Below are positions 45,808-64,000 of a DNA stretch of 64,000 nt, piece by piece. Position numbers and translations under genes: made by a program. Every line of letters begins with the position of its first letter. Position 1 is the stretch's first letter. The notes beneath the pieces were generated by a model. The model worked only from the letters and a program-made list of their open reading frames with translations. It was not told the origin of the DNA and did not search any database. This DNA is from Thermovibrio guaymasensis (GTDB taxonomy: Bacteria > Aquificota > Aquificia > Desulfurobacteriales > Desulfurobacteriaceae): NCBI RefSeq assembly GCF_003633715.1, contig NZ_RBIE01000001.1, forward strand, positions 451,833 through 515,832, written 5' to 3'.

Positions 45808-46629
45808 TTATTCCCCTTTCCTCTCCCTTAACCAATTTAGGAATTCCTTAAAGTCCTCTGGGACTTCAGACTTAACTTCTATTTTCTTCTCGGTTTCAGG
45901 GTGTTTAAATGAAATTTTCCTGCTGTGGAGGAGAATCCTCGGTGCAAACAGGAGCTCCTCCTTCCAACTTCCCCTGTAGTACTTAAACTCACCTACAACA
46001 GGGTGGCCGATTTGAGCTAGGTGTCTTCTTATCTGGTGTTTCCTTCCGGTTTCTATCCTTACTTTTAGTAAGGTTGTCCCTTTAAAGATTTCAACAGGTT
46101 CCACTTCAGTCACTGCTGGCTTTCCCTCAATAGGAGTCTTTATTACCCTTTTCCTTCTTAATTCTCCTTTAACTAAAGCAAAGTACTCTTTCTCTAACTC
46201 TCTCCTCCTAAAGAGCTCTTTAAACCTATCAAATATATCTTTCCCCTCTACTGCAATTATTACTCCTGATGTTTGCTTGTCCAGCCTGTGGACTACCCTT
46301 AAATCCGGATTGAATTCCTTCCTAATGATGTCTTCCAAACTTCCCTTTCCTTCGTTTGTTGTTATGAAAGGAGGTTTGTTAAAGATCCAAATCTCCCCTT
46401 CCCTTTTAAGGAGTTTAACTTCAGGCTTCTTAAATAAGTCTTCTGGATAGGGAAAGATTATTCTTTCTCCTCCCTTTAAGGTCTTTCTTCCTATTAGCTC
46501 TTTCCTGTAGTTAACGGATACCAAACCCTCATCTATTAACTTTTTTGCCCTCTTCTTTGAGCCTACTGCCTTACCGACCTCTTCCACCAGTTTTTTCCTT
46601 TTTTCTCCTAGAAATTTAAACTTTTCCAT
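45808..46629 (-). CDS. RluA/RluD-family 23S rRNA pseudouridine synthase
   Basis: A protein of about 273 aa. An N-terminal S4-like RNA-binding stretch (KRAKKLIDEGLVSVNYR) precedes the synthase domain with the catalytic HRLDKQTSGV (Asp) near residue 137 and the GRKHQIRRHLAQIGHPVVGE motif. Which uridine it modifies is not deducible. I use the ATG at 46629, preceded by GGAGAAGAG; the TTG/ATG further upstream lacks a site. Confidence 0.9.
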   Translation of the reverse strand: MEKFKFLGEKRKKLVEEVGKAVGSKKRAKKLIDEGLVSVNYRKELIGRKTLKGGERIIFPYPEDLFKKPEVKLLKREGEIWIFNKPPFITTNEGKGSLEDIIRKEFNPDLRVVHRLDKQTSGVIIAVEGKDIFDRFKELFRRRELEKEYFALVKGELRRKRVIKTPIEGKPAVTEVEPVEIFKGTTLLKVRIETGRKHQIRRHLAQIGHPVVGEFKYYRGSWKEELLFAPRILLHSRKISFKHPETEKKIEVKSEVPEDFKEFLNWLRERKGE

Positions 46630-46665
46630 CTCTTCTCCTATAGAAAAAATCAATGCTAAAGATAG

Positions 46666-46693
46666 TTGTATTAAGGAGTTGTCTTTTTAATTT
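46666..46693 (+). promoter_or_regulatory. Candidate promoter for the Sec-peroxiredoxin gene
   Basis: TTGTAT (46666-46671), 16-nt spacer, TAATTT (46688-46693). The layout, including the GATAG directly before the -35, mirrors the TATAG-TTGACT-16-TAATTT promoter of the second peroxiredoxin. Confidence 0.45.
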
Positions 46694-46736
46694 TAAAAAT
46701 GAAAGTAAATTGAAAACAAATTTCAGGAGGGAAAAA

Positions 46737-47351
46737 ATGGCATTAGTAGGTCAAAAAGCACCTGAGTTTAAAGTTCAGGCCTATGATCCGGTAAACAAGA
46801 AGTACGTAGAAGTATCCCTGAGCGATTACGTTCCAAATAACGAAGGGAAGTTCTTAATCCTCTGCTTCTACCCAGCAGACTTTACCTTTGTCTGACCAAC
46901 AGAGTTGGCTGCGGTCGCAGCTAAGTACGACGAGATTAAGTCACGTGGAGCAGAGGTTCTAGCGATCTCAACCGATACAGTTTTCAGCCACCAGATTTTC
47001 TGTGAGGTAGAACCCCTAATGAAGGACGTTAAGTACCTCCTTGGTTCAGATCCAACGGGAGAAGTTTCAAGGACTTACGGCGTATACATTGAGGAGGCTG
47101 GAATAGCAAGGAGGGGAAGGTTTATTATCAATCCAGACGGAGTTATAGTGGCTGAAGAAGTGCTTAATCCTCCGGTTGGAAGGAACGTAAATGAGCTATT
47201 AAGGCAGCTTGATGCCTGGAAGTACGTTTACGAGCATCCAGAGGAGGCTTGTCCTGCAAACTGGAGACCCGGTAAGAAGACCCTCAAGCCCGGTCCAGAC
47301 ATTGCCGGTAAGGTTGGAAGTGTTATCACTATTGACGAAATCCTATCTTAA
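46737..47351 (+). CDS. 2-Cys peroxiredoxin with in-frame TGA (probable selenocysteine) at the peroxidatic position
   Basis: Reduces H2O2 and organic hydroperoxides. The frame from the ATG at 46737 (CAGGAGG upstream) runs 204 codons to 47351, with a single TGA at codon 53 (46893-46895): PADFTFV-TGA-PTELAAV. The paralogue just downstream reads PADFTFV-Cys-PTEIAAV there, so the TGA replaces the peroxidatic cysteine. A SECIS-like hairpin follows. The resolving Cys in EEACPANW is intact. The frame is otherwise clean and conserved on both sides, which argues against decay. Sec-containing peroxiredoxins are known in some anaerobes. The alternative is a point nonsense mutation or sequencing error. 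selA/B/C/D are not in the window. Confidence 0.88.
46893..46924 (+). promoter_or_regulatory. Bacterial SECIS element for UGA recoding
   Basis: After UGA (46893-46895), 9 nt lead to an uninterrupted 8-bp stem, UUGGCUGC (905-912) with GCAGCUAA (917-924), capped by the loop GGUC (913-916). The upper part starts 11 nt after UGA, as in E. coli fdhF, whose SelB-binding loop also contains GGUC. The bulged U of the E. coli element is not present. An alternative small hairpin, CCAAC-AGA-GUUGG, directly follows the UGA. Confidence 0.8.
47075..47351 (+). repeat. Near-identical repeat, copy 1 (3' part of Sec-peroxiredoxin)
   Basis: 277 nt repeated at 47841-48117 (offset 766). I count about 11 differences, all but one codon synonymous. 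The 5' parts of the two genes are much more diverged. Confidence 0.9.
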
Positions 47352-47372
47352 AGGGACTTCACTTAAGGACCT

Positions 47373-47400
47373 AAGGGGGCTTTTGCTCCCTTTTTCTTTT
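47373..47400 (+). terminator. Terminator after the Sec-peroxiredoxin gene
   Basis: AAGGGGGC-TTTT-GCTCCCTT, an 8-bp stem with one G-U pair, followed by TTTCTTTT. It separates the two peroxiredoxin genes into two transcripts. Confidence 0.85.
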
Positions 47401-47407
47401 GCTATTT

Positions 47408-47445
47408 CTATAGAAATTAGCTATAGCAGTTATAGTTATTTATAG
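47408..47445. promoter_or_regulatory. Iterated TATAG elements upstream of the second peroxiredoxin
   Basis: Four (C/T)TATAG hexamers start at 47408, 47421, 47430 and 47440. CTATAGC-A-GTTATAG (47421-47435) forms a 7-1-7 inverted repeat with one mismatch, the layout of PerR/Fur boxes. The array ends directly at the -35 element, so it is a plausible peroxide-response operator. Confidence 0.4.
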
Positions 47446-47473
47446 TTGACTAACTGCCATTCCTTCCTAATTT
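47446..47473 (+). promoter_or_regulatory. Promoter for the second peroxiredoxin
   Basis: -35 TTGACT (47446-47451), 16-nt spacer, -10 TAATTT (47468-47473), identical in hexamers and spacing to the dnaG promoter. Confidence 0.5.
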
Positions 47474-47514
47474 TAATGTAGAAACAAATGAAAAAAATTT
47501 TCAGGAGGAAGGAG

Positions 47515-48117
47515 ATGGCATTAGTAGGCCAGAAAGCACCAGACTTTACCCTCAACGCTTACGACCCGGTTAAGAAGGAGTACACTACAGTAAAGCTCTC
47601 AGACTATCAAGGAAAGTTTTTAGTCCTCTGCTTCTATCCGGCAGACTTCACTTTCGTCTGTCCAACGGAGATTGCAGCAGTTAACGCAAAACTGGAAGAG
47701 ATTAGGAATTTAGGAGCAGACGTCCTTGCAGTTTCAACTGATACTCAATTTAGCCATCAGCTCTTCTGTGAAGTAGAACCTCTACTGAAGGACTTAAAGT
47801 TTCCACTTGCTGCAGACCCAACAGGAAAGACTGCAAGGGATTACGGCGTATACATTGAAGAGGCTGGAATAGCGAGGAGGGGAAGGTTTATTATCAATCC
47901 AGACGGAGTTATAGTGGCTGAAGAAGTACTTAATCCTCCGGTTGGAAGGAACGTAAATGAGCTATTAAGACAGCTTGATGCCTGGAAGTACGTTTACGAG
48001 CATCCAGAGGAGGCTTGCCCTGCAAACTGGAGACCCGGTAAGAAGACCCTCAAGCCCGGCCCAGACATTGCCGGTAAGGTTGGAACAGTTATTACTATTG
48101 ATGAAATCCTATCCTAA
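47515..48117 (+). CDS. 2-Cys peroxiredoxin (cysteine form)
   Basis: A 200-aa AhpC/Prx1-type peroxiredoxin with peroxidatic Cys49 in PADFTFVCPTE and a resolving Cys in EEACPANW near residue 170. It detoxifies peroxides with electrons from thioredoxin or a similar donor; no AhpF is nearby. The ATG at 47515 has CAGGAGGAAGG upstream. From residue ~109 (YGVYIEEAG) the protein is identical to the Sec paralogue except one Ser/Thr change, while the N-terminal half differs clearly. It has its own promoter and terminator. Confidence 0.95.
   Translation: MALVGQKAPDFTLNAYDPVKKEYTTVKLSDYQGKFLVLCFYPADFTFVCPTEIAAVNAKLEEIRNLGADVLAVSTDTQFSHQLFCEVEPLLKDLKFPLAADPTGKTARDYGVYIEEAGIARRGRFIINPDGVIVAEEVLNPPVGRNVNELLRQLDAWKYVYEHPEEACPANWRPGKKTLKPGPDIAGKVGTVITIDEILS
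47841..48117 (+). repeat. Near-identical repeat, copy 2 (3' part of Cys-peroxiredoxin)
   Basis: Partner of 47075-47351, about 96% identical by my count. The abrupt rise in identity at the start of this tract suggests gene conversion. Confidence 0.9.
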
Positions 48118-48120
48118 CTT

Positions 48121-49182
48121 TTAAGGGGCTTTTGCCCCTTTTCCAATGATTAAGTAGAAAAACTCTGCTCTCTTTCCCATTTCCCTATTTATACACCTTA
48201 TTCCTGCTCTACTTCTTAACTTCTTTAACTTCAACTTGAAAGGGCTCCTTATCCAACTTTTTTCCCTGATTCCCCTTACCCAGCCATTTCCTGTTAAGTA
48301 AATCCAACAGGATTTATACTCTTCAGGTTTTTCAACCTTAAATGCTATTTCCACTAAATCGGTTTTGATTAGACCGATGTCTGGTTTGTGTTCCTCAACT
48401 ACTAAAGGTTCTATTTGCAAATTCCTTACGAAGTTTTTGAATCCTGATTGATTTCCAACTACTGCAAACCTTGGAACTAGGATACCTTTCCCGCTGTAAC
48501 TTCCCCTGTCTTGAGTTAGGAGGAGTTTGTATCCTCTCTCTTTAAAGAAACTTACTGAAATTTTGTCGTACTCCCCGTATGGGAAAGCTAAAAATTTCGG
48601 TTTTCTACCGAAGATTTCCTTAAATCTCTTTTCAGAGAGTTCAGCTTCCCTTTTTAAAACTTTCAAGTAACTCTCTCTTGGAAGTTCTGCCCTCAGTTTT
48701 GCAAGGCTTGGATGGCTGTAAAGGTGGTTTTCAAAGTCTACAAGCCCGCTCTCTTCCATTTCCCTGATTTGTTTTAGAGTCAGAAAGTCAGGGTATCTAT
48801 CTATGGTTTCCATATAGAGGAAAACTGTGAATGGAAATTTGAACTCTTTTAAGATTTTAAAAGCCTTATAAGTTGTTCTATACCCGTCATCAATTGTTAT
48901 CACTACGCTCTTTTTTGGGATCTCCTTACCCGAAGAGATAGTTTTGTACAACTGCTCAAGGCTTATAACCTGGTACCCATTCTCTTTCAGGTAGGAGAGC
49001 TCTCTCCTAAAGTCATCAAGTGAAACTGACGTTGAGGGGTAGCGTTTGTCTCCAAACCTGTGGAAAACAAAGATGGTTGCGTAGTTATCTAATGCTGAGG
49101 CTGTTTGAAGCAAACAGAGGCTGGTCAGTAGAGTCAAAACCGTTCTTCTTAACCACCTTTTTAAGGAGCTCTGTGTACTCAT
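48121..49182 (-). CDS. Exported polysaccharide deacetylase
   Basis: A 353-aa protein with an N-terminal signal peptide (RRTVLTLLTSLCLLQTASA) and a NodB-type deacetylase domain (residues ~35-230): TIFVFHRF, the metal Asp pair in VVITIDDGYRTT, FENHLYSHPSLAKL with the metal His residues, and FLAFPYGEYD. A beta-rich C-terminal part (~250-353) of unknown role follows. It probably removes acetyl groups from cell-wall or surface glycans. The ATG with GAGAGGAAAG lies 98 nt inside the upstream gene, an unusually long same-strand overlap. Confidence 0.85.
   Translation of the reverse strand: MSTQSSLKRWLRRTVLTLLTSLCLLQTASALDNYATIFVFHRFGDKRYPSTSVSLDDFRRELSYLKENGYQVISLEQLYKTISSGKEIPKKSVVITIDDGYRTTYKAFKILKEFKFPFTVFLYMETIDRYPDFLTLKQIREMEESGLVDFENHLYSHPSLAKLRAELPRESYLKVLKREAELSEKRFKEIFGRKPKFLAFPYGEYDKISVSFFKERGYKLLLTQDRGSYSGKGILVPRFAVVGNQSGFKNFVRNLQIEPLVVEEHKPDIGLIKTDLVEIAFKVEKPEEYKSCWIYLTGNGWVRGIREKSWIRSPFKLKLKKLRSRAGIRCINREMGKRAEFFYLIIGKGAKAP
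48123..48142. terminator. Terminator between peroxiredoxin and deacetylase genes
   Basis: AAGGGGC-TTTT-GCCCCTT, a perfect 7-bp stem, with T-rich flank on the plus strand (TTTTCC) and TTAAAAG on the minus. It can serve both convergent genes; the deacetylase stop codon lies at its edge. Confidence 0.75.
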
Positions 49183-63049: not shown

Positions 63050-64000
63050 ATGAACTTAAACATTTCTCTCTTTGTTCCTGAGCTTTTTCTAGTTAGCTCT
63101 GCTATTCTCTTAATTCTTCTAGACCTATTCTTACCTTCAAGGGGGAAAAACGGCCTCTTTTCCACTATAACTTTTGCCGTTACCTGTGTTGCTGTTGTTC
63201 TCGTTGCCCTTTACTCTCCCTTCTCCCCTCAAGAGGCCTTTAACGGCTTTATAAAGAAGGACCTCCTCTCTGCTCTAGCGCAGCTTTTAATACTCTTTAC
63301 TCTCCTTTTAACCGTTCTGGTCTCTTACGACTACATTGAGAAGTTTCCAACGGGCTACGTCGGGGAGTTTTACTATACGCTTATATTTGCTGCCCTTGGT
63401 GGGATGTTGATGGTGGAGGCCAACGAACTTGCCACCCTCTTCGTCTCCCTAGAGGTAATGTCAATTTCAATCTACATCCTTATGGCCTTGTTTAGGGGAG
63501 ACTACAGGGGTAAGGAGGCGGCTTTAAAGTACTTTATTCTAGGTTCAATCGGAGCAGCGGTTATAGCTTACGGTTTTGCCGTCCTGTACGGAATTACAGG
63601 TAGCACTCTCTATCCAGAGGTCTCTTCTAGCTTAAACTCCAACTTCTCTGTGGCTGCCTTAATTGGAATAGCTCTCGTTCTATCTGGTTTCCTCTTTAAA
63701 GTCGGTGCTGTTCCCTTTCACGGATGGATGCCGGATGCCTATCACGGAGCTCCAACTCCGGTTACCCTCTTTATGGGAGCTTCAGTTAAAGTTGCCGTCT
63801 TTGTTGCCCTTTTAAAGCTCTTTTTCCCGGTATTCCTTCCGGCCTTTGAAAGGTGGGATGAGGCCGTTCTTATCTTCGGTCTAGTTTCAGCCCTGTTTGG
63901 GGCCTTTGCAGCTTTGGAACAGGAGAACTTTAAGAGGATGCTTGCCTACTCCTCAATATCCCACGCTGGAGTTATCCTTACTGCCGTTGCAACCCTTCCA
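63050..64000 (+). CDS. nuoN: NADH-quinone oxidoreductase subunit N (cut by window end)
   Basis: The ATG at 63050 overlaps no stop but follows the nuoM TAA by 1 nt. The open frame continues to the window edge (317 codons seen). It begins MNLNISLFVPELFLVSSAIL and has the antiporter-like signature FHGWMPDAYHGAPTPVTLFM near residue 225 and FKRMLAYSSISHAG near the edge. Third antiporter-like pump subunit of complex I. Confidence 0.93.
   Translation, partial: MNLNISLFVPELFLVSSAILLILLDLFLPSRGKNGLFSTITFAVTCVAVVLVALYSPFSPQEAFNGFIKKDLLSALAQLLILFTLLLTVLVSYDYIEKFPTGYVGEFYYTLIFAALGGMLMVEANELATLFVSLEVMSISIYILMALFRGDYRGKEAALKYFILGSIGAAVIAYGFAVLYGITGSTLYPEVSSSLNSNFSVAALIGIALVLSGFLFKVGAVPFHGWMPDAYHGAPTPVTLFMGASVKVAVFVALLKLFFPVFLPAFERWDEAVLIFGLVSALFGAFAALEQENFKRMLAYSSISHAGVILTAVATLP

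Follow-up and report, generated by a model that had tools for sequence, protein, structure and literature searches.

The locus analysed here raises two questions, namely whether a peroxiredoxin gene interrupted by a single in-frame TGA codes for a selenoprotein, and how this gene is tied, in regulation and in history, to the cysteine-encoding peroxiredoxin gene directly behind it. Both genes lie in a stretch of 64,000 nucleotides (the window) of Thermovibrio guaymasensis, which is closely related to the vent bacterium T. ammonificans and whose genome (G000) comprises 1.62 Mb in 9 contigs and is 99.98% complete. Homologues were searched in 136 genomes of the phylum, and the closer comparisons used a family set of 22 genomes, including G000, and an order set of 24 genomes, which adds G113 and G114. 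G000, G133, G134 and G135 belong to the genus of the window (g1, Thermovibrio), and G124–G127 belong to g4. The sets contained 19 Sec copies in the family and 16 Cys copies in the order, or 14 in the family when the two of f2 are excluded; distant peroxiredoxins with 35% identity in G124 and G127 were left out of these counts, and some of the family assemblies are incomplete (G129 is 83% complete). The two genes and their key codons are as follows.

46737..47351, + strand: predicted Sec-peroxiredoxin gene of the AhpC/Prx1 type (204 codons plus TAA)
46893..46895, + strand: in-frame UGA (codon 53) in place of the peroxidatic Cys codon (PADFTFV-U-PTE); TGA in 19 of 22 family genomes
47250..47252, + strand: codon for Cys172, the likely resolving residue (EACPANW motif), aligned to CPA-W-PG of PDB 5zte
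47515..48117, + strand: Cys-peroxiredoxin twin (200 codons plus TAA)
47659..47661, + strand: TGT codon for Cys49, the peroxidatic residue of the twin, from sequence and alignment

The first-pass annotation had described one 204-codon frame with a single TGA opposite the peroxidatic Cys of the twin, which was confirmed by translation and alignment: the frame 46737–47351 yields 204 residues with the TGA at codon 53 as its only internal stop, and this codon aligns with Cys49 of the twin, which is four residues shorter near position 32. Re-reading position 46893 gave TGA, not TGT or TGC. The start of the twin is likely at 47515 rather than at the first in-frame ATG at 47488, because the resulting MALVGQKAP start and its SD match those of the Sec gene. 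Both proteins contain an AhpC-TSA domain and a 1-cysPrx_C tail domain, and the Sec protein shows the features of AhpC/Prx1 2-Cys enzymes, with the AhpC-TSA domain, the PxxxTxx[C/U] motif and a C-terminal resolving Cys. The top PDB matches were plant BAS1 and bacterial AhpC, which have the resolving-Cys stretch CPA-W-PG in common with it. Compared to typical 2-Cys peroxiredoxins of this type (PDB 5zte, 1we0), with which it shares the fold family, the PxxxTxx[U/C] motif and the CPANW resolving motif, the G000 enzyme carries Sec in place of the peroxidatic Cys and a C-terminal VGSVITIDEILS tail that lies mostly past the end of the 5zte match (residue 195 of 204). The top NCBIfam family for both proteins was PrxU (NF040737), with 233.5 bits for the Sec and 243.8 bits for the Cys protein, both below the cut-off of 270.

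The TGA is conserved at exactly this codon in 19 of the 22 family genomes, 11 of which also contain a close Cys copy, while eight contain the Sec gene only; six of these eight are listed as 99% complete (G123, G124, G125, G126, G128 and G135). The other three genomes (G119, G133 and G134) contain Cys copies only. Behind the UGA, the 19 Sec copies vary at 7%, 4% and 49% of codon positions 1, 2 and 3, respectively, which argues that the downstream frame is translated and under selection. Across the window, 15 frames with a single read-through TGA passed our filter, and the TGA of the Sec gene was, as judged by ORF length, the only one to split two ORFs of at least 80 aa. A TGA-containing peroxiredoxin from another assembly of the phylum (L155 in G012) was excluded from the Sec copies because its stop lies off the peroxidatic codon.

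All four genes of the selenocysteine machinery were found in G000, namely selC (C2:221556–221646, 80.8 bits, anticodon TCA) and, each above its cut-off, selB (C2:6549–8411), selA (C1:516340–517689) and selD (C1:38087–39013; L158). The selA gene lies about 16 kb downstream of the peroxiredoxin pair, some 0.5 kb beyond the end of the window at position 64000. Among the 19 genomes with a Sec gene, matches above cut-off were obtained for selC in 17 (none in G120 and G135), for selB in 17 (none in G118 and G120), for selA in 18 (none in G131) and for selD in 18 (none in G118). The order-mates G113 and G114 showed no selA, selD or selB above cut-off; a tRNA-Sec match in G114 (47.3 bits at a cut-off of 47, 76 nt) was taken as an ordinary tRNA. 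A tRNA-Sec has already been reported in T. ammonificans and D. thermolithotrophum (PMC4227106). The selD gene of G000 has a TGA of its own (UGA in GUGAK) and is itself predicted to code for a selenoprotein, and one TGA is present in all 21 above-cut-off SelD matches of the order.

Bacterial SECIS elements are hairpins just behind the UGA with a small loop and an early G. The SECIS-like hairpin that had been noted behind the TGA could be placed precisely.

46905..46924, + strand: SECIS-type hairpin UUGGCUGC-GGUC-GCAGCUAA, whose outermost pair is not conserved in relatives

Its GGUC loop lies 17 nt past the UGA. A stem-loop directly 3' of the UGA is present in all 19 Sec copies (with an AGUU loop in G127), and the minimum free energies over 39 nt ranged from −10.4 to −15.1 kcal/mol in these copies versus −0.6 to −5.6 kcal/mol in the 16 Cys copies of the order. 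By itself, the folding energy of the G000 hairpin is only modestly unusual, as 5 of 200 shuffles were equally stable for a stretch of 36 nt (z −2.1) and 49 of 200 for a stretch of 46 nt (z −0.69). The case for SECIS and Sec rests on conservation, that is, on the TGA in 19 of 22 genomes and the hairpin in 19 of 19 Sec copies. Compensatory changes are visible at a U-A pair, which is replaced by C-G in G135 and by G-C in three distant Sec copies. The covariation scores were 0.114 for 19 and 0.175 for 22 sequences, neither of which was reached in 500 shuffles, which ignore the relatedness of the sequences, and slid registers gave at most 0.077 and 0.084, respectively. Two pairs changed on both sides, a count matched by 38 of 500 shuffles with 22 sequences and by 6 of 500 with 19. 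The percentage of paired cells, reached by 47 of 500 shuffles, was less telling for the 19 sequences, 14 of which have the outermost pair (columns 13–32) broken. The third positions of codons 58–61 are nearly frozen in the Sec copies, with an entropy of 0.30 bit each, versus 1.58, 1.38, 1.09 and 0 bit in the 14 family Cys copies. Measured against its own synonymous recodings, the hairpin has only a modest advantage: the mean z was −1.64 for the Sec and +0.56 for the Cys copies, and 8 of 19 Sec copies but 0 of 16 Cys copies fell within the best 5% of recodings (2 of 19 Sec copies within the best 1%). All Rfam matches to positions 46600–47500 fell short of their gathering scores, and none was to a SECIS family.

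Reading the UGA as a true stop would turn the locus into a split gene, a pseudogene or a sequencing error. Mechanical ORF calling indeed cuts the gene into pieces of 80 and 148 aa, and the 148-aa piece is the form present in public entries, yet with the same codon kept in nearly all family genomes, no further internal stops, strong selection on the downstream frame, and the hairpin and a full Sec machinery in place, we regard this reading as highly improbable. The gene product is almost certainly a selenoprotein, judging from these sequence features, and the proposed Sec peroxiredoxin is thereby supported. UGA 53 would be decoded by SelB and Sec-tRNA, Sec53 would attack the peroxide, the resulting selenenic acid would be resolved via Cys172 of the partner subunit, and the enzyme would be recycled by thioredoxin or a similar donor. 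The expectation that ordinary annotation misplaces the start of this gene was borne out. The Sec protein is stored in public databases as fragments of 148–149 aa with the first residue four codons 3' of the UGA: among 120 of 6901 matches listed, seven relatives are 142–149 aa long, six of which (P0010–P0014 and P0023, one of them from Balnearium lithotrophicum) have this start, while the seventh (P0015, 142 aa) has a later start.

Turning to the control of the two genes, we found a common motif upstream of each, together with a possible border between the transcripts.

46640..46665, + strand: candidate operator for LysR_Se upstream of the Sec gene, matching 11 of the 12 fixed bases
47373..47392, + strand: terminator-like hairpin followed by a T run, after the Sec gene (hairpin scan)
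47410..47435, + strand: candidate operator for LysR_Se upstream of the Cys gene, an exact match and the sole one in the genome

The motif, ATAG-N7-CTAT-N7-ATAG, begins 84–99 nt 5' of the Sec start codons and is present in 15 of the 19 Sec genes, in 12 exactly, in two with one mismatch (G000 and G132) and in one with two mismatches (G131, shuffle P 0.027); it was not found upstream of the four Sec genes of g4 (G124–G127). Allowing one mismatch, G000 contains six sites versus three for the reversed control, two of them at the peroxiredoxin promoters, three within ORFs and one between ORFs. The window has two operator matches versus 0.21 expected, and 2 of 100 shuffles had as many. Over all 24 genomes, 28 exact matches were obtained versus 10 for the reversed pattern. 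Sixteen of the 28 lie at most 150 nt upstream of peroxiredoxin genes (12 Sec and four Cys, two on the other strand), one lies about 262 nt from a Cys gene, four precede a fused FeS-molybdopterin oxidoreductase gene, and seven are within ORFs called by our script. Control regions of 35 genes contained no match inside the gene and one within 150 nt downstream, which is the Cys operator of G000. The exact 26-mer, in either orientation, occurs in only four of the 16 Cys genes, and the inner dyad ATAG-N7-CTAT is present at most 200 nt upstream in eight of 16. At 10 Sec-peroxiredoxin loci of other phyla, one of them with 7 nt of usable upstream sequence, the dyad was not found.

Inspection by eye revealed a TTG, as of a −35 hexamer, directly after the third half-site in 13 of the 15 operator-bearing Sec promoters, and TTGACT 10 nt behind the third half-site in the Cys promoter of G000. 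An operator adjoining the −35 region is the activator-type position of LysR regulators. The suggestion of separate promoters found indirect support: the terminator-like hairpin and an operator for each gene speak in its favour, but a sigma-70 scan gave no excess of promoter-like sites (one versus 2.2 expected). The operator before the oxidoreductase gene was found in four genomes (L228 10358; L231 2854; L229 1888; L230 1281). Two copies of the protein are complete (1172 and 1175 aa), the copy of L231 being TtrA-like with a TtrB/NrfC-like front part according to NCBIfam, and this enzyme may possibly be a second target of LysR_Se.

A search with PF03466 detected one LysR-type protein in G000, two in G123 and in G128, and none in G124–G127 and G129. 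The sole one found in G000 belongs to the LysR_Se family (LysR_Sec_metab, NF040786), scoring 291 bits at a cut-off of 250, and 17 of the 24 genomes of the order have a match above this cut-off. According to Lin et al. 2015 (PMC5322559), the LysR_Se subfamily occurs only in organisms with SelD, and its ortholog in archaea is HrsM. All four operator-less Sec genes (G124–G127) are in genomes without a detected LysR-type protein, where the absence of the operator may represent a single evolutionary event. In G129, the operator is present and no LysR-type protein was found in the 83%-complete assembly; G133 and G134 keep LysR_Se while their Cys genes have no operator. The LysR_Se gene of G000 is not adjacent to selA, selB or selD. 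Linking site and regulator from these patterns, we consider that LysR_Se probably binds the operator. The locus thus appears to hold an AhpC-type Sec enzyme beside its Cys version, with a good likelihood that both are under the selenium-associated LysR regulator of G000.

That both genes instead answer to peroxide, by way of an OxyR-like sensor bound at the operator, is unlikely. The ahpC gene is a classical OxyR target, and the ATAG-N7-CTAT-N7-ATAG array resembles the OxyR half-site array. Against this reading, the only LysR-type protein found in G000 reached 73.7 bits with the OxyR family at a cut-off of 329, compared to its 291 bits with LysR_Sec_metab, and no Cys pair was seen by eye in the segment where the redox Cys pair of OxyR would be expected. 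OxyR was therefore dropped as the regulator of the operator in favour of LysR_Se. In the proposed scheme, LysR_Se would sense the selenium status, perhaps via selenophosphate, and bind ATAG-N7-CTAT-N7-ATAG next to each promoter, such that ample selenium would favour the Sec gene and a shortage of it the Cys gene; the direction of this regulation is a guess modelled on HrsM. That selenium actually switches the cell from one twin to the other is plausible, with the chances slightly below even. The earlier suggestion that the pair switches with selenium supply or oxidative load has thus gained on the selenium side, through LysR_Se and the candidate operator, and remains conjectural, while its independent wiring of the genes seems not to hold, since both twins look tied to the same regulator. 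Eight genomes contain a Sec gene without a close Cys twin, so such a switch is not general.

A second box precedes the SD of each gene.

46711..46725, + strand: palindrome TGAAAACAAATTTCA immediately upstream of the Sec gene's SD; possible Fur/PerR-type box
47489..47503, + strand: palindrome TGAAAAAAATTTTCA immediately upstream of the Cys gene's SD

Palindromes resembling TGAAAATnATTTTCA occur at −25 to −31 in 14 of the 15 Sec genes outside g4, with 11–14 of 14 matching bases (the weakest match is not significant alone), and in all three Thermovibrio Cys genes that occupy the locus of the Sec gene (12–13 of 14 bases), while none of the 13 other Cys genes has one at that position. Eight of these 13 have TGATAATnATTATCA (13–14 of 14) further upstream, which is presumably a box of the Fur/PerR type. 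The G000 genome codes for two Fur-family proteins, and an input by Fur or PerR is therefore possible. Perfect TGATAATnATTATCA boxes precede Cys peroxiredoxin genes outside the slot, for example those in L169 and L011.

The borders of the locus, in the following called the slot, and the tracts shared by the two genes bear on the history of the pair.

45808..46653, − strand: putative RluD-type pseudouridine synthase, left slot border (our label)
48121..49182, − strand: putative polysaccharide-deacetylase-like gene, right slot border (our label)
47075..47319, + strand: near-identical tract on the side of the Sec gene (comparison of the two genes)
47841..48085, + strand: near-identical tract on the side of the Cys gene (6 differences in 245)

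The Sec gene is flanked by both the rluD-like and the deacetylase-like border in nine of 19 genomes and by one of them in six (explained by a contig end in two cases); in two of the nine (G116 and G118), more than 1 kb separates it from the deacetylase-side border, and neither border was found in the stretches around the Sec genes of the four g4 genomes. Only G000 among the 24 genomes has the Sec/Cys tandem. Within its genus, the slot holds Sec and Cys in G000, Sec in G135, and Cys in G133 and G134, and the Cys copies of the remaining 11 family genomes that have one lie outside the slot. In a tree of the 5' parts, all Sec copies form one clade (support 100) with the Cys gene of G000 outside, whereas in the 3' tree it joins the Sec gene of G000 (support 95), next to that of G135 (77), which indicates a Sec-to-Cys conversion of the 3' half. 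The two G000 genes differ at 57 of 109 third positions in the 5' part and at 6 of 81 in the 3' part, versus 10 to 42 of 81 in the 3' parts of the ten other two-copy genomes. A breakpoint test on the G000 pair gave a chi-square of 72, which was not reached in 2000 permutations; the values of the other ten pairs, calculated without permutation, were 4 to 35, so most pairs are more similar in their 3' part and G000 is the extreme case. This points to a Cys twin which occupies the usual locus of the Sec gene and whose 3' half was overwritten by the latter. In Thermovibrio, a Cys gene would have entered the locus of the Sec gene, with both genes still present in G000 and a single one in each of its sister species. 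The 3' halves of the unlinked Sec and Cys genes of G118 (L149 and L008) are also unusually similar (10 of 81), possibly by ectopic conversion.

This history would also suit a pair that is merely a stage in the loss of selenocysteine, with a true selenoprotein being replaced by the Cys gene and no functional switch between them. The slot contents of the genus (Sec only, Cys only or both), the visible gene conversion, and the palindrome at −26 in the three slot Cys genes, at a spacing like the −25 to −31 of 14 of 15 Sec genes outside g4, fit such a replacement. We nevertheless give it a rather low probability: G000 has intact frames and upstream regions for both genes, its Cys gene has an exact operator, and 11 of 22 genomes retain both genes, ten of these at separate loci. 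The most far-reaching reading, a bacterial Sec/Cys peroxidase switch acting through LysR_Se and a 26-bp operator, in which the 3' halves were blended by conversion and the half with the recoded codon and SECIS was spared, is put forward as tentative, at somewhat less than even chances.

Sec-peroxiredoxins are a known family, with 12 in Table 1 of PMC1794560 and others in PMC9312934. Like PrxU of Eubacterium (Peptoclostridium) acidaminophilum and other TxxU Sec-peroxiredoxins, the G000 enzyme is a thioredoxin-fold peroxidase with Sec as its peroxidatic residue; it differs from PrxU by its score below the family cut-off (233.5 vs. 270 bits), the Desulfurobacteriaceae host, the mostly single locus, the adjacent Cys twin in G000 and the candidate LysR_Se operator. 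A regulator of the LysR_Se family and an isogene pair in one genome are likewise found in Methanococcus, in the form of HrsM and Sec/Cys isogenes (PMC11097638, PMC5322559), where HrsM represses the Cys isogenes at adequate selenium by a mode of sensing stated as unknown (PMC11097638). Compared to that system, the host here is bacterial, the targets are peroxiredoxin rather than hydrogenase genes, and the common operator is deduced from sequence. The bacterial LysR_Se proteins have been tied to sel genes via neighbourhood and phylogeny in PMC5322559, a paper that does not use the term "binding site"; what we propose in addition is a candidate operator, with peroxiredoxin genes as targets. Among the open-licence papers listed for these subjects, we found none on a Desulfurobacteriaceae Sec-peroxiredoxin or a LysR_Se operator.

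New in this analysis are the candidate operator ATAG-N7-CTAT-N7-ATAG on the Sec genes and the Cys twin of G000, and the gene-converted tandem unique to G000, which illustrates how a selenoprotein may be replaced at its own locus. If correct, the operator would give the bacterial branch of the HrsM family a candidate target site on DNA, and with its clear two-gene target it makes the function of bacterial LysR_Se directly testable. The analysis also predicts a conserved Sec-peroxidase for relatives of T. ammonificans and D. thermolithotrophum, whose protein is stored in truncated form in public databases. In the genome study of T. ammonificans, a strictly anaerobic species, the word peroxiredoxin is absent from the main text (PMC5441870); in D. 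thermolithotrophum HR11, a peroxiredoxin, not necessarily the Sec enzyme, was 14.2-fold up at low H2 (PMC12724263). Beyond the phylum, Sec-peroxiredoxins with TGA at the same codon occur in records of Campylobacterota, Deltaproteobacteria and Poribacteria (L124, L129, L132–L134, L136, L138–L140 and L142), and the seven of the Campylobacterota type have a hairpin with a longer loop.
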